From Hyphochytrium catenoides (taxonomy: Eukaryota > Sar > Hyphochytriomycetes > Hyphochytriales > Hyphochytriaceae), in contig FLMG01002456.1 in NCBI GenBank assembly GCA_900088475.1, forward strand, positions 19,277 through 83,276: DNA of 64,000 bases. Reading direction: 5' to 3'. Under the pieces are notes generated by a model. It was not told the origin of the DNA, searched no databases, and worked only from the letters and a program-made list of their open reading frames with translations. Both the position numbers and the translations under genes were made by a program. Positions 8,000 through 28,120 of the stretch are shown here, in pieces. Position 1 is the first letter of the stretch, and every line of letters begins with the position of its first letter.

Positions 8000-9210
8000 T
8001 CAAAGTGCCGTCCGACTGCTTTATAGAGTAGGGTTACAGATAGATGCAAGTCCGAAGGTTGATTAGACAGGCACTGTCACGAGGTCAATGCTTACCTTTT
8101 CCGTGAAGTCACGTATTCTCCGCTCTCTCTCTCCTTCTTCAGCTGACCCTGTAGTTCTTCAATTTTCACTGCCGCCTCAGAATGCTCTCGCTCTAGTGTG
8201 CGTCGGAGACTCTCTATCTGGCTCTTCATTTGCCTGATAGAGTATATCGCCAAATCTTCTTCGGCGTTGTCGCCAGCATATCGCTCCAAAATAAGATCTT
8301 TCATTGCCTTCGCGGTGCTCGAAGCTTCGCCATTGCAGTTCACATTTTCCTCAATCTGCCCTAGTACACCCTTCAAAGTGGCTCCATTGTCAAGGAGCAA
8401 TGTAAAGAGCTTTAAATTGCCATCTCTAGCCGCATTTTGTATAGCGGTGCGACCGTAGCAATCCCTGGCGTTGATTTTGATGGTTGGATGACGGAGAAAT
8501 AGTTCTGCTAAACGTAGCCGTTCTTCCTTTTTGTCGGTCCATCCGGGAACCGGGGTGTTAAGATTGGAGGCGATGTACGCACTAAGAAGAGGCCCATGCG
8601 TGTAGGCTTGGTTGACATCGAATTCTTCCTTGTTGCTCAGGAGCTCGTTTACTCGGTCAGCCTGGCAGAACCAGACAGCATACACTAGCCTTTCAAAGCC
8701 AGAGCGCTTCCTAGACCCTTCAGAGACGAATGGAAGTGCTGAAGGATAAATATCTTCCTTTGGCTCTATGATCAGGTTGCAGTTGAGCTCTACTTCGTCT
8801 CCGTCCGTCAACCCCAAATCAGCCGGGCTTTCCCCTCCATCCAGTGTCTTCTTGTCACCGGTCGCTGCGTCTTTCAATAGCGCTGTCCAACCGTCTCCGA
8901 GAATAGTACGCCCGCAGTAGCTAGTCCGAGTACTGAAATATTGCTGAGCCTTGGCCTTTGATGCTACAACGCCGAAGACCTCGATAAGAGTTGCCGTTTC
9001 GTTGATTTTGACTTTTACAGCTTCAACGACTCTCCACCCTGGCGTAATTGTCAGAGTGACGGTACTCGTAAGGTCGACCAGTGCTAGAGACTTGCGTCTG
9101 GAGCTGTTGGTTGACAAGGCAAGCTGTCCTGCTGAGGGAGGCGGCCCTGTTCTGTTGGGGCTACCGTTATCGGTGCTGCCACGGCCTAGGTCAGAGGCTG
9201 CATTACCCAT
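8000..9210 (-). CDS. N-myristoylated ubiquitin-like/ankyrin-repeat/coiled-coil protein, ~377 aa
   Basis: Function unknown; probably a membrane-tethered adaptor. The chosen ATG (9210) begins MGNAASDLGRGS, a good N-myristoylation signal with Gly2 and Ser6; an upstream TTG in the same frame is not needed. Residues ~45-150 look like a ubiquitin-type fold: alternating strands from LTSTVTLTITPGW, a helix, and the ending SPADLGLTDGDEVELNC, as in ubiquitin-like domains. Two ankyrin-type units follow, the clearest being NARDCYGRTAIQNAARDGN plus a leucine-rich second helix (LFTLLLDNGA). The last ~70 residues are a charged coiled coil (IESLRRTLEREHSEAAVKIE). The long exon ends at 8096 in a GTAAGC donor; a 19-nt final exon (8018-8000) gives an in-frame stop, but this last exon is a guess. 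The gene converges with the PH-START-ORD gene. Confidence 0.65.
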
Positions 9211-9898
9211 AGCTACGGACAATAGCTTCACTCCCAAGTTTGAAGCATATATGACAAGCAGTGGTTAAGTATGGTTGGTGCTAATGCTTCCGAGCAGAGT
9301 AATCAAGTCATTGCTTGGCGTGGACGCAACTCCTGACGCGGCGATTGATAGCGCTGACTTCGAGGTATCTTTGCAGTCGGGAACTCTTGTCAGCCCTTCA
9401 GTAGCCTTCTGAGGGAACTCGAACGACGATTGAGAGTTGACCAAGAAGGAGAGGATGATAGAACTACACTCTTCTCATGAGGAAATTTCTGCCATAACTA
9501 TGCATGTTTGCCTCCTTCAAAGCCAAGCAAGCTGTTCAAGTCCTTCTCCCTCTCTTGGGCTCAGCTCCAGGCTCCAAGCCATCAACTTTGAAGTCACGAA
9601 CCGTTAGATGGGCGTTACCGGTCAAGATTTTATTGGTAGCTGAGCAACTAAGGAGCCAATATGAACTTCATCTGCTTATGACTGTGGAGCTCTTCATGTT
9701 CCTTCGTGATGACAGGCGGATGAGGACGAAAACATTGAGGTGATATGCTTACGCTCGGTATGGGCGATAGCAGTAGGAGAGAGGAAGCACAGACTTGCAT
9801 GAAAGGCGAAAAGAATATCATTACTGGACGTTAATAAAAATAGGAGTAAGGCTGGGCTGATCTGCTTCAGCCATTAAGAACGCTGACAGTGGTCAATT
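9211..9898. other. spacer between two minus-strand genes
   Basis: About 690 bases downstream of the fusion gene and upstream of the ankyrin gene. It probably holds the ankyrin-gene promoter. A short plus-strand ORF (9504-9743) has no recognisable domain. Confidence 0.5.
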
Positions 9899-12800
9899 CT
9901 ACCGCTGCACCTGGTGCCGAGCACCATTCTCTCTGTGGATAAGCTCGCTCTGGTGCACGCCATTGAAGGATAACGAAATCTCCTTTGGTGTTTCCAAGAA
10001 GCTGTAGCTGCCTGAGTGTGATGATAGCACGCCTCCTTCCCGAACAGAGTTGCCTTTGAAGCGGAAGCGGGCCGACGACCGCGTGCTGAGCGCGGGAGAC
10101 TCGATAAGATTGTCCTGCGCCAACCTAGCTGCCTTTTCTGACTTCATGCAAATAGCTCCTGACGCAGTGCTGGCGAACATCCCAAATATCATTACGACAA
10201 TTGGAACTGAGACTGCGACGTATACAATGAGGGGTATCTGTAGAAAGCAGGCCAATGTGTCAGCATGAGACGACCAACCAAGACATCAAGACCACTTTAG
10301 AATTACCAGCAGGTTCTTGTACAATGAATCCTGGAAGAGTTCCTTGGTAACTGCTGCATCTAGGTTCACAAGATAGAGCGCCGCCTGCACAAGCCAATAG
10401 ATAAAGAAGCCTGGCACGACATTTGCGAGCCTGTGCCCAGCTGGGAATACTTCCATCGCTGAGACCCAGGTAGCCGTGCCATAGCTTGTAGCCCCAACTA
10501 GCACCAAGAGAACAAAGAAGGCTGTGTAGACTGTACGAATGGTCTCAGTCACGCTGTACTGTTGGTAGCCGACGGCAAACAGAACGACACCGGCGCAAAG
10601 GATCACAAGCGGCAGTCCATCCTTGAGAATAGTCTTTCTTTTCACCCTGTCCACCATCGCCAATCCTGCGCCCACTCCAAGGGCGTAGAACAACGGATAA
10701 GCAATCCTATTGAACCTGAGGATACAAGCACAGGATAATTTAGAAGGCGACGAGCGGAACTCCTCAAACACGGACGTTGTTGGGCAAGCAAAAGGTACAG
10801 TCTTTAACTAGTTCCACTCTGCTCACCTGACGAAGTTGGTTGCGCCGTTACCAGTGTCTTGTTCAGCAACAGGTGCATTCTGCGATTGATAGAAGATGAA
10901 CGTTGAAGTGGAAATCGCGAATGCAACCTGAAGAAGGATTATTAAGATTCTTCTAGGCACCATCGGGGCAGCCGAAGACGGCAGAGAGAGCTGCGAAGCA
11001 ATCAGCTCCAACTCGCTGTGGACATCCTGAAGAGGAAATAGGACAAGAAGAAACCCACGTCAGCAGCAATAGCTAACAACCATCAGGGGGGAAGGACTTA
11101 CATGACGACGCCTTAAGCGGATGAGACAGTCCTCACACGCGGCACGCCCAAACTTCTTGTAGAGGTAAAGAGGGCTCTCCACGAAATAAAGAGACACAAA
11201 AATCATCAGCAACAGCGGGATGTTGGCATAAAGGAGGTTCAACTTCCAGATGTTTGCCTTTGCCTGCAGCTGATCAATACCAGCCAGAGAAGCCATCGTG
11301 AGGTTGCCCACAGTCATCCCCACCAAGAAAGTAAGTACCCCCTTCCCTCTGTGCTCCAATGTGGAGATCTCAAAGTTATACAGAGGAACAGAGAGAGAGA
11401 GCATTCCTGCAGCAAGGCCCATGAGGGGGAAACCAACTGTCACTCCTAATAGACTGTTGTTAGAAGCGACTCCTGCCAAGATTCCACCACTGATACTGAG
11501 AACGCACGCAGCGATGACAGTCTTGCGTCTTCCAATCAAACCGAGGAGTAGTCCAGCGATCAAAACACCAACTGCTGCAGCGGCATTGGACGCCGGCGAG
11601 AGATACTTCACCACAAAGTCGACACCGCTAGGGTTGCTCTTTTGGATGCCCTCCAAGAACTTCACGAAGTTCATATCAATGTTGAAGCCGCCCGTGATGT
11701 ACATAATCATACCAGTACCGAAGCCTGAGAGCATACCAGTCACGAAGAACACACTGATCGCGTACTGGCTTGCACCAGAGATAGCCCTCGTGAAGCCCTT
11801 GTTGTACATCATACGCGCCTGCATGACCGACACAAACGGAATGGCCGAGAGCAGGAAGAGGATAATGGCTTGCGTGGATCCCGCCAGGAAATCGAAGAAG
11901 AAGCTAATCTCCTGGATGAAGAAGGATGTACCTAGAGGAGCCTTGTAATGATTGAAGGCCAAGAGACAGTACATAATGCCGTAGAGACAGGTGAGAGAAG
12001 ACACCAAAGCGGTAAACATGTGATTGAAGTCTGTTTCGTTTTCCTTCTTGCTAAACACCTGGACACCTACACCTGCCAGCACCACAGTCACCACGTACAC
12101 CAGCGCATACACCGTGGCCTTAACAAATACGGGGATATTTGTCAAACGCACTGCCAGCCCAATGAGGGTCAGTATGCCTAGGATGGCCATGGCTCCAGCG
12201 TAAGGTACCCAAAATGACTGGTAGTCAAAGTAGGATATCCATACAATGTAGGCAATCATGAAATGGCGAGATTCCCTCAGTAGAAGGGCGACACGCGAAG
12301 AGGACGACATGCAAATGTACTGCGCCCATTCCTCCCCAATCCACACCTGCCATGCCTTCTTTGCATCGGGTTTGTCGCCTGCACAGAGAGCCAAGTATGT
12401 AAGTATGATGCCCAACACGCCCGAATAGTCCACAGCTTACTAAGAGCAGAACAAACAAGATACGTCTTCCCAAAGAATAGGGCTATAAGATGAGAGGTCA
12501 TTATTTCTTTATGCTCACCAAGAGGGATCGGCGCAAACATCCATTTAAACCAGAGCCCAATGTCCTGCTTGGTCTTTCTGTACTCGAACCCCTCTGTATT
12601 GAACAGGAAAGGCGAAAGAATGAAGCAGATGGCAATGAAGTACACAGCGAAAGACGCCACGCCATAGTTCTGCGGGGTTTTGCACCAGAGGACCACTAGG
12701 TCGTTGTTCGTCTCGAGACCGTTTTCGGCACATACCTGCATATAAAGCATAGCATTAAGACTGATGAAAGACGTCCGATACACAATCAACAAATGAGATA

Positions 12801-15800
12801 GAGGAAGTCCAAGAGTTCTTAGAGTGACGGCCAACACTTCTTGGGAACTGGTACCCTAAACAGCGAAGGCAAAGGCAAAGTCGAAGGAAGGGTGAATACT
12901 CACCCTGACAGTGCCTAGGATGCCATAGATTATCAGCAGTCCAACAAGCTCCCAGCCCATCCTGAAGTGGCTCATGGAGTATCTCATGAAGATCTCAGGC
13001 ATTGGATCACTGCACAGTGACGTATAAACCAGCGGATTAGGGCGCGTCTTGAAGCAATAAGAGCACAATAATAAGACCGCAGATCAAAGAAATAGAGCTT
13101 AACACAGGAACGGGGAGAGTAGTACAAACTGGCATTTACACGGTCTTACCGAGAGATGGTGAAGCCTCGACCTGTTGCTCTGTACTTAGCGCCGCCCCTG
13201 AGCAGGCCCTCCATGTAGAAGTGATGTCTTGTTCCCATTTGAAATGAGTAGAAGAGCGGACCCATTGTGATGATCAGTGTCAGTAGGTTCCCGACCGCCT
13301 TGAGAACTCCCTTCTCGGTCATCAGGCAGAGGAACAGAGGTAACGTAAAAAGCCATCCAAGCTGCAGAATGAACTGAGTGTTCAGGACGTTGTCCAGCTG
13401 GTTAAGCTCGAACTGCCCGATATTCTCTACGATATCTCTCAGTACTTCTCCCTGCAGAGACAGGTAGACTTTGCTAAACATGAACATAAAAATGCCGAAA
13501 ACCGTCAAGGTCGTGTTGATGTAGAACCCGTTGTGCGCGTAGTACATTGAGCAAAGCCGGAAGAAGTCGAGAGTGCTCCCCATGCGGTGGATGTCTCGTG
13601 AGAGAGACGACTCCGCATTGCCGTTAGCAATCTTCGTCTCGAAGAGGGTAATTTGCGTCAAGGCTACATCCCTTCCTTTCCCGCACTGCATAAACTCCTC
13701 ATGAATCACAAGGCCGCCTCTGACAGTGGTGTTGAATCCCGCAAATATGTCTTCTGACAGATTGATGCCTTTGCTTGGTTTTGAGAGCCCGCCACGGGTA
13801 ATCGCAAAGATTTTATCAAAGAAGTCAGGATGACCGTAGTGCATACGCACACGCAGCGGATCAGCTAGCACACGCTGGTTGAGAGTAACGAACACTAACT
13901 CCTGCCACGCCATGAACGTAGAGAGAGAGGAAGCTGATCCAGTGAAAATATGCTCCCTCATACCAATAATAGTTGGTGGGGCACCATCCACCAAACGATC
14001 AGCGGTAGCTAGAAAGTTGGCAATCTTCAGTGTCTCTTCGAAGTAGTGTTCCTGGTTCATGTCAATAGTTTGGACAAACTCTCCTCGAGAAAATGCAAGG
14101 GCAACATTTTGGTTCTCGGGTTTGCCTTCACCCAGAATAGGGTTCCCAGGAAGCTCATACCTGTACACCTCAACGATCTCATTATTCTCACTCTTCACAA
14201 GAACAGCGCTGAACTTGCAATTGGCAGCATTGCCGTCTGGGCTACTAATCTCATCCACGTAGGCCACGCGCCAGTTGGGGTACATTTTCATCAAAAAGTC
14301 GATATCCTCTGCTTGCTGATGACCATTAGCCTTCTGCCAGCCATAGACTTGGCAACCAGTAACGTAACTGAACTTGAGACGGACCATCTCGTCCATGCGC
14401 CTAATCTTGATGTCGTGGCTGATTGACTCATCTCCACCTATTTCCAGCCAGTGAAGCATCTTGATTGCATCCTCGTAAAGCATCATACCGCGCACCGTTC
14501 TCGCAAGTGTCTGACCGCGGTAAGAGGCCCATAGACGAACCTCCATTGGAGTCCGTCCGACAGCCTCATCGACGCTGTGGACACCCATGCGTTCAAGGAA
14601 GTTGCCCCATTCGTCAGGGTACACAGTGGTCAGGTACTGAAGAATGGTGATATCCATACGGTCCAGCTGCTCACTCTCCGCAAAAATAGGGTTGCTTTTC
14701 TGGACTGGAGTGTTTAAGTCCTCAATGGAGTAGATAACTGGCTCCGCATAATAAGGCGTGATCACACAAAAGGAGTGTGAGTCCTTGATGGAATCAACCG
14801 ATGGAATGTCCATGGAGAGAGAGTGTAAAAAGTATCCGATACGACGTCGAGCTTCTTCGCAGCGAGGTAGCGCATCAATCGCCTCCACGGTCAGCATGAG
14901 GAATGCCCTAGATGCCATTGCCATGGCGTTACGGTCATCATACAGCTTTCTTAGTTGCTCCGCAGCGAAGGCTCCACCCCTTTGACGATCGAGAATGCGA
15001 CAAGACGACAAGTCATAGGCATTAGGCGCCTGACTGGCTTGCGAGATCTGGTAGATAAGCTCCTCGAACCGGTCGAGCACTGCTGACATTTCAGAAGCGC
15101 GATGAACAGCAACGTTTCCAGCTTCCAAATAAGTGGGCTCAGGCATGTCCAGAATGGCACCCAAGAACTCGACCAGGGCCTGTGAGATAACCCGCATCTT
15201 GTTGAACTTTATCAAACGAGAGAGCATCAGATCCCGACAGTGGCGGTCGACGAGGTCAAAGAATGCTGCAATTGCAGGATCGTTGTCGGTCAGAAAGAGC
15301 ACCACCTCTCGCACAGCAGTGTAGCAACCATAGGCCGAGCTGAGGCAACCTTGCTTATGCAGCTTATTCCGCAAGGGCCCATCATTGTTCTTGGATCTGT
15401 ACTTTTCAGCAATGTCGATAGCTTTCTCAACACTCCCTGCTGTGAGAAAGATTGGATCGTTCACGAGTCCCTTGTCTCTGATGTCGTACTGCATCACAGT
15501 TGCCTCTCTGTCATCGAGCAGGTCAGCTAGCCTGAAGCTGTTGATGCACTCGTTCCAGACTACGGCAAAGCGCAGCCGCGACTGGCTCTTCAACTCCTCC
15601 GGACGATTGGCAGCTCCCAGAGCGTGCCTTGCGATTCTGGTTACAATTTTCTGATCAAACAGGAAGGGTGCCATCTGAAGGCGCTTCCGGACATCGCGGA
15701 GGTTATGAGCGTCCCCAATCTTCTTCTTCCACCCCAAGATCGCACCAGCGAAGCCCTGAAGTACAGCGAACCAGATTTGCGCGTCATAGAAGAAGACGAT

Positions 15801-17961
15801 GACAGTTGGCAGCCAGAAAGCGAGAATGACACCAATGTTAGAGAATTGCAGTGGCCAGCCTCCAGGATAGGCAATCTCTTTCGGATCGAGCTCCACCATC
15901 TCCATTGTAGGGCCCATTATAGGACAAATGAAGAACTGGAACGAGACCCATATCTTAGCCAGCCAAAGCACCACCCAAAAGAGCGAATAGCGCATCACTG
16001 TTTTAAACGATTGACGAACATGTCCAACATATTGGTCCCGCCCTCTCCGAACATACTGCCAAAAGGAAGAGTTTCTGATGGCATTGGGAGAGAAGGCAAG
16101 GAATGACCACAGTATCTGAGGCAGGAGATAAACACCCGCGACAATAGGAGCCGTATTCAACAAGGTAAAAGAACCTGAAGGAGAGAAGCAATCAGAATGA
16201 GTATTCTGCAGGTCTCACGGATGGATAAACTCGTAATAATCTTACCAGCTAGCGCAGTGGCAGGAGAGAAGACAATCGCCAGCGATAGCGCTACGAAGAT
16301 CGAGTGCCAGACCAGGCGGACGAAGAGTGCAAAACCATAAGACGTATTGCCGAACACCAGCAAACCCCCAATCCATAGTTCCAGGAGCACCTTAAAGACT
16401 GCTATTACCGCGAATGTAATAACAACGGAAAAGAGTGCAATTTGTGCCTGATCCGTGGTGGAGTTGGTTGTCAACGCGTCCCAAATGCCCGAGTAGATGT
16501 CCAGTCCAGACGGCATTTGGTGAGTTCTCTTTGAGTTGACGGCAGTCCCATTAACCGAGGCTTGGGTGTTCGGAGTCCCTAGCCATGCGACATAAGCGAG
16601 CGCGACACTGTGACAGAAATAACACCAGTCAGTGCTCTGTCACACGCACGAGCGACACAAACAAAAAAAAGAGCCGATATCCCTCTCTTGAGGCGAAGCG
16701 AGGTTCACTACTCTCCACAGCAGAACGGATGTCGTCAAACTACCTCCGGTCCCCTGCTTCTACCACTTCGTAACCTGAAAACTCTTCCTCCTGCCAAAAG
16801 CAGTTAAGGCGTACCTCAAGTGGAAAATCCACAGGTGGAACTTGAATATGCGAATATAGCCCAGGAACGGGTTAAAGATGCTTCGCTTCTCTTGAAAGGT
16901 CTTCTGATAGTTCTTATCAAGTACCAGCGCAACAGTCCGCTCATCGAAGCGAAGACAAGCTCTGGACCAGAAGAACTCATTAAAGTCATCGTAGTTCCTG
17001 ACCTTAGTGTGCTCCGCCAGACCACCATCTGGCTTCTTGAACTGCTTCATCTATAACGCAAAGGTAGAGAGGTACATGAGGTTACATGCTCATAATAACC
17101 GGGGCGCAAGTATTCACGAGATGCAAGGAAGGAGGCGGAAATAAGGGGAGTAGTAAGCTTATCGTCTGTACAGACCTTGGCAAGCTGGACGTAAAGAGGC
17201 TTGACAACTTCTTCTAAGAAGGATCCTGGAATAGACCTTTCAACTGGACCTTGCTGGGTATACAGCTTCTTGGCCATATTGTGGTATATGAAGCAGATAC
17301 ACTCAGGACAGAACCTCAGATTGCCTGCCTCTCCCCATACGAGCAAGTACAGAGCGATATCCATCTCCGGGGTCTCTCTTGAAAATATTGTTTGAAGCCC
17401 CAGGAACCTGCACCACTGAATATAGTTCCCGAAGAACTTGCGATGCAACGCCCTTACATCGGCCTAACCAGAAAGTGAACATAAGATTACTCTCTGATAC
17501 GCTGAGACTACTATCAATGCAAACCAAATCTTGTGTTACCTGGACGGAGTCTCTACTCTTGGCTCTAACACGAATGTTTGCAATGAGAAGTGCCAGATGC
17601 TCCTTTTGATTGTCAACATTGCCCCGCTGGAAACCGAAGCGAAGCGCAAGAAATTCGAAGATGTCTCCGCCGTCGCCATACTCAGGATCGTGAATCTGCG
17701 CACCGACCTTTGCCACACCGCTACAGAGAGACAACCTGTTAAAAACAAGCTTTTAAGTCTCGATCAGCTGTGTTGCACTTACTGGCGTAGAGCCTCCAAA
17801 GACTCTCGCATGTGCAGCGGTCCATCCTGATCCAAATTGAAATAGTTGGACTGCGCATGTCTGCGGTTCAGAGTGAGCGTGCTCTTACTCCGCGCCCGGT
17901 TGAGCAGCTCTGCGTCTACGTCCTCTAGGAGCCTATAGAGAGATGGGATTAGCGCCAGCAT
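9899..17961 (-). CDS. beta-1,3-glucan synthase (GT48) fused to a sugar-porter MFS transporter, 12 exons, ~2340 aa
   Basis: Polymerises glucose from UDP-glucose into beta-1,3-glucan at a membrane; the C-terminal third is a sugar carrier. Exons: 17961-17783, 17735-17540, 17463-17176, 17050-16775, 16636-16246, 16174-13150, 13009-12904, 12855-12519, 12378-11102, 11026-10827, 10715-10307, 10237-9899; phases all agree and the total is divisible by three. GT48 landmarks in order: FGFQRGNVDNQKEHLALLIAN, LLVWGEAGNLRFCPECICFI, NYDDFNEFFWS, YRGQTLARTVRGMM, ILGEGKPENQNVALAFSRGE, QTIDMNQEHYFEE, GGAKYRATGRGFTI and FVSVMQARMMYNKGFTRAI. Within the same exon, from about 11770 (residue ~1800), the MFS begins: GRRKT, PLYNFEISTLEHRGKG, VESPLYLYKKFGR, VDRVKRK and YGTATWVSAMEVFPAGHR, each at its expected place among ~12 helices. 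The 17176 donor could instead lie at 17086 (intron of 35 nt). The first exon start is provisional: an in-frame TAA lies just upstream of the 17961 ATG. Confidence 0.93.
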
Positions 17962-25164: not shown

Positions 25165-28120
25165 ATGACTGGCAGAGGGCCGGGTAGGCTGTCCACTTAT
25201 GGTAGTGTACCCTTAGGGTACCCCTGTAAATCAGAATTCACAACGTCCTGGTCACAACCGCCTGCCGGAGGGACTCGCATCTACCGGCCTGGAGACCCTC
25301 GGCAAAGGGCATGGGTCCATAACCTTGGACTCTGGTGCTTGCTAGGTGCCACCTTCTTCCTCTGGCACTGGACTTCCTGTAGCGGCCCACGTGAAGAGAC
25401 AGAGATTGTAAATGAAAGGTTAAATCCCCTTCTTATGGTCAAGGCCTCTCATCAGGTGCGCCAGGAAGGGCCAGAATTGAAAGGAAATCGAGCTTGGGTC
25501 AAAGACCCTCCGGTGGCGCTAGAGCACTGCCAATCATCTTTCTTTATGACATACGGCATGACTAAGCAATGCATGGAGGCTCTGCCCTATGATGACGCCA
25601 AGGCGAAGAGCACAATATCTTCGCTCGAAGCCATGGTAACCCACCTTTGGTCACTAACATTTCGGCTGATACAACGGTGCACTAACTCTGTTCATGACTT
25701 TAGATCCCTTCATATGCCTTTACGGGATGGGTGGAGAAAGAAGTAGAGTTTTCACCGAGCACTACTCTACCAGCCGCCTCCATACTCCAGAAGCTCGCCG
25801 AGTTGAAGGCTCACCAACACTTCCGCTCAGACTCTCACTTCCAGCAAGCTTTAGCTGAAGTTTTCATTCCGTTGGCAGACGCACACACTGCCTATCTAAA
25901 GCCTAGTCGGTATGCGCCTCTGCTGTTTCTTCAACCCCTGCGATTCAGGCACGTCCAAGGCAACCGATTTAGCGGTCAAAATGCAACGAGCAGCAGGATG
26001 AAGATTATTGCACTAGGATTTAATCATCTTGATGTTCAGCAGTACACGGCCTTATACGGAACGAATCCATTCAATGAGAAAGACCTCTCAAATTGGGAAG
26101 TCACACACATTGATGGCGTTGATGCTATCGAACACCTTCGGTTATTTGCGTTGGCCACAGTAGGCTTGGTGAAGGACACGAGTGGGCGGTTCAACCTCGC
26201 TGTCGAAGGCAGTGGACAATCTGGCCGAGGGTGGTTTCTTTGCCGCAGCCAGCGACATTATGGCGTTCCCCTCTCTGAATCGATCCAATATCGCTTCCAG
26301 AATCCCGAGAACGTAAGTGATGTTGTGGAGCTGTCCATCAAATGGATAGGTGTGAATTTGACTGCTAAAGCTGAAGACAACAGCTCCTCCAACAGCCACA
26401 CTCGAAGTGCCGCAGTCACCGATCAGATATATCGTAGAAGCCATCGCGGGACTTGGAACCCTCAGCATAACCTGATCAGCTTGATAGAGGGTGATGTGGC
26501 TGCATTAGAGGGGTCGCTGCATTCAGAGGAGGTTACTTTTGATGCAACTCTTCTGGAAACCAAGGACCGAGTCGGAACCCTTACGGTCAAGAGCTTTAGT
26601 CCTATCAACACCTCAGCAGTCATGGACTATTCTACCTGGCTTGACAACTATGCCGACTCTGTGATGGACGCACTTGAGACTTTTAGGGCCAAAAAGGGAC
26701 GATACTTGGTACTCGATCTAAGGTCCAACGGAGGAGGAGATATCTGGTAAGATAAAGCTATCTGGCTCAATCACCCGCTGCATTTCTCTTGCCATTCGTA
26801 TGCCACCATATACTGTACTTGCCGTTCCCGTCGTGTTCTGCTTTTCTTCTATACTTCTGATCCTTTTGCACTTCCCTTCCTATTCTCTCTGAGCCCTCCC
26901 CGTGCCCACTGCTATTACTCCGTAGCCTACCTTCTCCCTTACCAGCCTAAAGAAACTTCAGTGTAGAGTTCTGTTTAACTTTGCGCGGTGCACTTGCGTG
27001 ACCTGCGACTTCCTACTATGTGCACACAGCCTTGGGTATGCCCTAGCACGCTACCTCTTTCCAAATGTGTCAATTCAAACGGGTCTTAGCGAGGGGTCGG
27101 GCCCGCACCAGCATGCACGCTATCACATTAAACAGAGCCCCCTCCTTGTAGCTCTGGCACAACAAGGGGCTCTAGCAGCCCGTAAGGCCGCCGGACGCGT
27201 AAAGCGTACTCAGTGGGACCCATCTGCGTGGTTTAGGTAAACACCTTGTAATGGGTACTCATAATCTTAGCTGGTGGTCTAATCAATGTGTAATTAGCGC
27301 TGAGGACTCCCAACAGTTCGTCGACGAGGGCTGGATGCTAAGTGGTCAAAGGATTCTTCCCAGCGACACTCCATGGTCTCGAGGCTTGCGTTTCGGTTGC
27401 GCCCAATACTCTTCGCACTTTGAAGCCCCTGGGGTTGCTTGGACAGGTCTACCCCCTGAGCAGATTATCCTTCTGTCAGATGGCTTGTGTGGCTCGACTT
27501 GTGCCGTCTTTTCAAGTTTTGTGCAACACCACAAGCTCGCCAAGCTTGTCGTCGTCGGTGGTGTTGAATCTGCCACCGGACAACAGGTATGTGGGGAAAG
27601 ACCTTTTGCGGCAAGATAAATGGATGGGATTAACGTGCCCCATGATCTCGCAGTTTTGGGGCTTTCCTGGGGGTGAAGTGTACCGACTATCAACCCTTCT
27701 GCATGATGCAAAGCTGCTTGAGCTGGAAGAGAAGGTGCTCATGCCTAAGCCTTTACCGGACGGTGCGGATTTCTCCTTTACCCTTGCGGCCATTTACCCC
27801 TGGGGCGAACCTCAGAGCGTTGTCCCTCTAGAGTTTAGGTACAGTACGACTCAAGCTTATTCGTTATCGGTTTGACCTCATCCTCTCTGGACCTTACTGC
27901 AAGTCTTTCGAGCGCTTAGCTCAAGCCCCTCAGCGACCTACGTGCCACAGCTCATTCTGTGACCAACCCTCGCTGTTGCTCACAGTCCCTTTTTGGTTGT
28001 ATTCTAATGGGTATCATCTGCAGGTTTTCCCCAGCAGACTATCAGGTACAGTATGCCTCAAAAATTGAGAGCTTAGTCGCAGAAGTTGTGACCATAGTCA
28101 AGAGTACAATGACGGGCTAG
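25165..28120 (+). CDS. membrane-anchored S41-family (tail-specific-protease-like) peptidase, 6 exons, ~763 aa
   Basis: Predicted serine peptidase facing the lumen or outside. Exons: 25165-25635, 25704-26746, 27030-27236, 27298-27586, 27654-27838, 28024-28120; phases agree. The ATG at 25165 follows an in-frame TAG. Residues ~51-70 form a signal anchor (LGLWCLLGATFFLWHW). S41 features follow: an early ADAHTAYLKPSRY, the core LVLDLRSNGGGDICLGYALARYLFP spanning the second intron (first part LVLDLRSNGGG), the nucleophile region LLSDGLCGSTCAVFSSF, VVVGGVESATGQQ, and a terminal PLEFRFSPADYQ typical of the eukaryotic, fungal-like branch of the family. At 763 residues it is in the usual size range for that branch. 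The start of exon 4 could alternatively be at 27271. Substrates cannot be inferred. Confidence 0.85.

Follow-up and report, generated by a model that had tools for sequence, protein, structure and literature searches.

Oomycete walls depend centrally on the synthesis of beta-1,3-glucan, and fusions of a GT48 glucan synthase with a transporter of the major facilitator superfamily (MFS) were reported in 2018 and again in 2024. The accessible text of the earlier paper (PMC5795050) describes a glucan synthase-transporter fusion in Hyphochytrium catenoides that is common to Pseudofungi. That of the later one (PMC11302233) describes three Saprolegnia fusion proteins enriched in the detergent-resistant plasma membrane, calls the MFS domain unique to oomycetes, reports it absent from glucan synthases of other eukaryotes and speculates that it aids glucan extrusion; across the available parts of both papers, either substrate transport or glucan extrusion is suggested for the MFS part. 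Searched by term, the main text of Morris 2009 (PMC2705460) mentions neither glucan nor callose nor transporter, and the accessible portions of PMC7965971 and PMC2926784 do not mention the fusion. The GT48-MFS architecture is therefore already known and not new. For a loss of the hexose site in the fused MFS domain, we found no report in the accessible parts of the literature searched.

The window, by which we mean the whole 64,000-nucleotide stretch of H. catenoides DNA analysed here, carries a gene of this type on its minus strand. Twelve exons between 17961 and 9899 splice into a single 2302-residue frame with a terminal stop ending at 9899, and all 11 introns are GT..AG, with splice sites inferred from sequence and homology. 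The original prediction had put the length at ~2340 residues. Its choice of start codon, at 17961, is putative but close, as homologue alignments open at residues 7-33. The features are as follows.

9899..17961, minus strand: fused GT48-MFS gene (in-frame join, GT..AG introns, end-to-end alignment with oomycete proteins)
17961-17783, minus strand: exon 1
17720-17540, minus strand: exon 2
17463-17086, minus strand: exon 3
17050-16815, minus strand: exon 4
16607-16246, minus strand: exon 5
16174-13150, minus strand: exon 6
13009-12904, minus strand: exon 7
12735-12519, minus strand: exon 8
12378-11102, minus strand: exon 9 (1277 nt, residues 1562-1987), spanning the junction (~11770) and coding for the first half of the MFS domain
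11026-10827, minus strand: exon 10
10715-10307, minus strand: exon 11
10237-9899, minus strand: exon 12
16952..17361, minus strand: FKS1 domain 1, residues 155-279, crossing introns (Pfam PF14288, E 1.5e-26)
12332..14549, minus strand: GT48 catalytic domain, residues 988-1577 (best Pfam stretch)
10172..11770, minus strand: MFS domain, residues 1765 to about 2212, crossing introns (Pfam Sugar_tr and alignments)
9902..10171, minus strand: cytosolic-type tail past the last MFS helix, from near GAICMKSEK at residue 2217

Pfam finds FKS1_dom1, Glucan_synthase (E 3.2e-182, best stretch at residues 988-1577) and Sugar_tr (PF00083, residues 1774-2170) in this order within the one frame, along with a match to MFS_1 (E 1.4e-9), as expected if a GT48 synthase and a sugar-porter MFS domain share one polypeptide. 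The junction falls within a single exon, as had been claimed: base 11770 corresponds to residue 1765, inside 12378-11102. The GT48 helices run on to about residue 1760, and this half terminates in Q-x-R-x-M-[FY]-N followed by F, as do five unfused oomycete and two plant synthases. The first MFS helix begins about 10-15 residues beyond this usual GT48 C-terminal motif, with no linker. Third-position GC is 0.60 in both halves alike. Just after the last MFS helix, a G and, seven residues on, an E are invariant in seven aligned sequences (GAICMKSE in the window protein).

The accessible text of PMC12715860 gives K1082, N1085, D1102 and E1221-D1222 of Fks1 as substrate-binding or catalytic positions. 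Alignment to the yeast GSC2 chain, whose numbering is offset from that of Fks1 by 19, places K1130, N1133, D1150 and E1253-D1254 of the window protein at these same positions, which are the ones covered by the comparison (Y849 and E851 lie outside the aligned part). The DAN motif reads DMN in the window protein.

We searched for relatives with the GT48 region (residues 930-1764), which gave 4153 matches, and took the best 120. The combination of PF02364 and PF00083 in one protein, a search for which had been proposed as a check, was found in 94 of these best 120 of 4153 matches, the remaining 26 being without PF00083. Those of the 94 that carry an organism name are oomycetes. BLASTP against oomycete fusions gave single alignments at 37-39% identity, spanning the window protein from residues 7-33 to residues 2226-2283 (at least 12 rows), and a search with the MFS region gave four matches, all of them Phytophthora or Peronospora fusions, at 28-30% identity. 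The suggestion that related SAR lineages may share the architecture thus proved correct, the fusion being common in one oomycete GT48 clade.

Could two adjacent genes, or two loci joined in assembly, have been taken for one protein? The available text of PMC5795050 allows for an operon-like structure where protein data are absent. Yet the junction sits in one open exon, the same colinear protein is encoded in many independent genomes, and, according to the accessible part of PMC11302233, membrane proteomics detected three Saprolegnia proteins of the fusion type, though not necessarily by peptides from both halves. We consider two genes or an assembly join highly improbable because the homologues are colinear across genomes. 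Misassembly or chance is ruled out by the colinear proteins of many other genomes, with at least 12 end-to-end alignments.

To place the window protein, we built a FastTree phylogeny from the GT48 region of 118 of the 120 matches (P0104 and P0119 are absent) together with the window protein. The bipartition uniting it with 101 fusion-type tips had a support of 1.0, with 11 unfused oomycete synthases falling outside. This set comprises all 95 proteins with a tail of more than 380 residues past window residue 1700, plus P0037, P0066, P0071, P0078, P0085 and P0094, among which PF00083 is annotated in P0066 and P0071. An arrangement with the window protein as sister to all oomycete fusions is not borne out: read as a bipartition, the FastTree branch that puts it outside both oomycete groups has a support of only 0.18. 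In quick IQ-TREE runs with a selection of 25 fusions and nine unfused sequences, the window protein came out beside group A, with SH-aLRT values of 81 (GT48) and 87 (both halves), while a position outside both groups was not rejected in this subset (p-AU 0.161). In a tree of the MFS domain only, the window domain joins a 58-tip group at 0.914, and the 96 fused domains come together at 1.0. Each oomycete group was united at 100 by IQ-TREE to the exclusion of the window protein, and both hold Saprolegniales-type, Albugo and Peronosporales-type members, which argues that the window lineage lies outside the sampled oomycetes. Judged by its sequence, the window protein is a true fusion and a deep-branching member of the pseudofungal GT48-MFS type.

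We then asked what the MFS half retains of a sugar porter. We take Q161, Q282, Q283, N288 and N317 of GLUT1 to be polar hexose contacts, and the role of W388 is likewise assumed. The alignment contained 95 oomycete tails, the window protein, GLUT1, STP6, GlcP and STP10 segments, three stand-alone relatives and, from the same genome, three further MFS proteins. Before counting, we excluded nine proteins that did not align across residue 1700 and another 16 because their tails were shorter; P0041, P0070 and P0096, which are without PF00083 annotation, are among the 95. PF00083 has at least 10 matches in the genome, of which L009, L010 and L017 were tabulated, the others being partial or more distant.

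The window protein has none of the five contacts. L1913, F2023, A2024 and T2029 replace Q161, Q282, Q283 and N288, and the N317 position is also replaced. In the 95 oomycete fused domains, none of the contacts is kept in 74, one in 13 and two in eight; by position, Q161 is kept in 0/95, Q282 in 2/95, Q283 in 0/95, N288 in 21/95 and N317 in 6/95. All five contacts are present in GLUT1, STP6, GlcP, STP10 and L009, a single-exon stand-alone porter of hexose type in the same genome (C363:94649-96058). Of the other MFS proteins, L010 and L017 scored 0/5 and 1/5, and the stand-alone relatives P0121, P0122 and P0123 scored 3/5, 2/5 and 1/5. The alignment-free motif QQxxGxN is present in the four solved porters and in L009, and absent from the window protein, from all 95 fused domains and from L010, L017 and P0121-P0123. 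Residues of the fold and cytosolic signatures persist in the fused domains (E146 in 95/95, R92 and R93 in 90/95 each, and W388 in 92/95), and the window protein has equivalents of R92, R93, E146, R153, R333 and W388, the last as W2137. One paralogue group, comprising 35 of the 95 fused domains, pairs G at GLUT1 E393 with H or L at R333; R333 is kept by the other oomycete paralogue group and by the window protein. The original description of both halves as complete thus stands for their fold signatures and fails for the hexose-contact residues of the MFS half: as far as the sequence goes, "complete sugar-porter" holds true of the fold and not of the binding site.

These data bear directly on the proposal that the MFS half imports glucose for local UDP-glucose synthesis or acts as a hexose sensor (transceptor). 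Several features speak for it, namely the Pfam Sugar_tr match (3.1e-24), the nearest solved relatives, which by profile are glucose or hexose porters (GlcP at 4.2e-31), and W388, kept in the window protein and nearly throughout the family. Against it stand the missing contacts, 0/5 in the window protein and mostly replaced family-wide, and the absence of QQxxGxN from every fused domain, whereas L009 of the same genome has all five contacts. The proposal is weakened by these results, and we regard it as improbable. The residue data over 96 domains argue against hexose transport, and the question becomes directly testable.

The contact test can tell porters of hexose type from other MFS proteins, but it does not distinguish a porter that no longer works from one that carries a different substrate. 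In the main rival reading, the MFS half works as a transporter, and the movement of a solute other than free hexose (an oligosaccharide, polyol, ion or other) supports wall synthesis. The sugar-porter fold and its conformational signature residues are largely kept; the motif-A and PESP residues together with W388 could reflect a working conformational cycle. Moreover, the loss of contacts in these sequences does not exclude transport, as the non-hexose MFS proteins L010, L017 and P0121-P0123 are likewise without the full five and score alike. Yet the residues at the contact positions vary (Q161, for instance, is replaced by L, G, A, V or I, and Q282 mostly by F, S, Y or L), and on the 96 shared tips the MFS tree has approximately double the length of the GT48 tree (29.3 versus 15.2). 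Variable contacts and a long MFS tree are easier to reconcile with weak constraint on the substrate site than with a single substrate common to all, and we consider a non-hexose transporter rather unlikely, less so than a glucose importer or sensor.

Our preferred reading, which we consider probable from the sequence comparisons, is a GT48-MFS fusion-type beta-1,3-glucan synthase in which the MFS half has been repurposed as an accessory module and imports no hexose, because the contacts are lost in the window protein and in most fused domains. At the level of sequence, the analysis establishes one frame, conserved GT48 active-site positions, descent of the MFS half from sugar porters and an ancestry in common with the oomycete fusions. 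In such an enzyme, the GT48 half would make glucan from cytosolic UDP-glucose and extrude it. The MFS half would import no hexose and would be a repurposed porter retained in the chain, where it would regulate, scaffold or help translocation; a structural or translocation role may fall to it. Its profile kinship to glucose and hexose porters and the N288 kept by 21/95 fused domains count against this reading. More tentatively, and with somewhat less than even confidence, we propose that the hexose site was lost no later than in the common ancestor of the window lineage and oomycetes and that the porter stayed on as an integral subunit of the synthase with a regulatory or chain-translocation role, i.e., a covalent pseudo-transporter cofactor. 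A profile search for a stand-alone donor of the MFS half gave three proteins from 7993 candidates scored, too few to indicate a source.

The genome searched comprises 42.5 Mb in 1105 contigs, and counts from it are lower bounds. PF02364 occurs in at least four places, the window and contigs C1058, C705 and C714. The latter three each carry a further GT48 gene with many exons, at about 15.4-18.0 kb of C1058 (L019), 10.3-14.3 kb of C705 (L020) and 45.7-50.1 kb of C714 (L021). A fused-MFS profile detected no MFS exons at these loci in 10-kb stretches reaching about 3, 2 and 2 kb downstream, respectively; its weak matches there fell on the final GT48 helices, a part that the profile also contains. 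It matched MFS exons solely in the window gene. In the same lower-bound search, no match to the light-harvesting protein family PF00504 was found in the genome, and a photosynthetic host is thus not supported. Two other frames of the window gave faint domain matches. Directly downstream of the fused gene, a 390-residue frame (8092-9264, minus strand) shows weak ankyrin similarity (Ank_2, E 3.5e-5, below the curated cut-off). In a 348-residue open frame further along (25704-26750, plus strand), similarity to Peptidase_S41 is borderline (E 3.2e-5, at the cut-off), and a match to a CPAF-like PDZ domain falls below the cut-off.

Compared with known systems, the window protein has the GT48 domain and active-site positions in common with fungal Fks1/Gsc2 and plant callose synthases. 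It differs from Fks1, for which the accessible text of PMC12715860 describes no MFS domain, and from plant GT48 enzymes, six named examples of which are among the best 120 of 4153 matches without an annotated MFS domain. With the sugar porters GLUT1, STP10 and GlcP, the window protein shares the MFS fold and signature residues, but its MFS domain has lost the polar hexose contacts and forms the tail of a synthase. Saprolegnia parasitica SPRG_09073, SPRG_20212 and SPRG_15364 and the Phytophthora 'callose synthase' have the same domain order and junction position. Oomycete fusions form two paralogue groups. Only one fused gene was found in the window genome, and its product falls outside both groups, its branching point within the clade being weakly supported. 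The oomycete GT48-MFS fusions are colinear with the window protein from end to end and, like it, are mostly devoid of the hexose contacts, of which the window protein has none.
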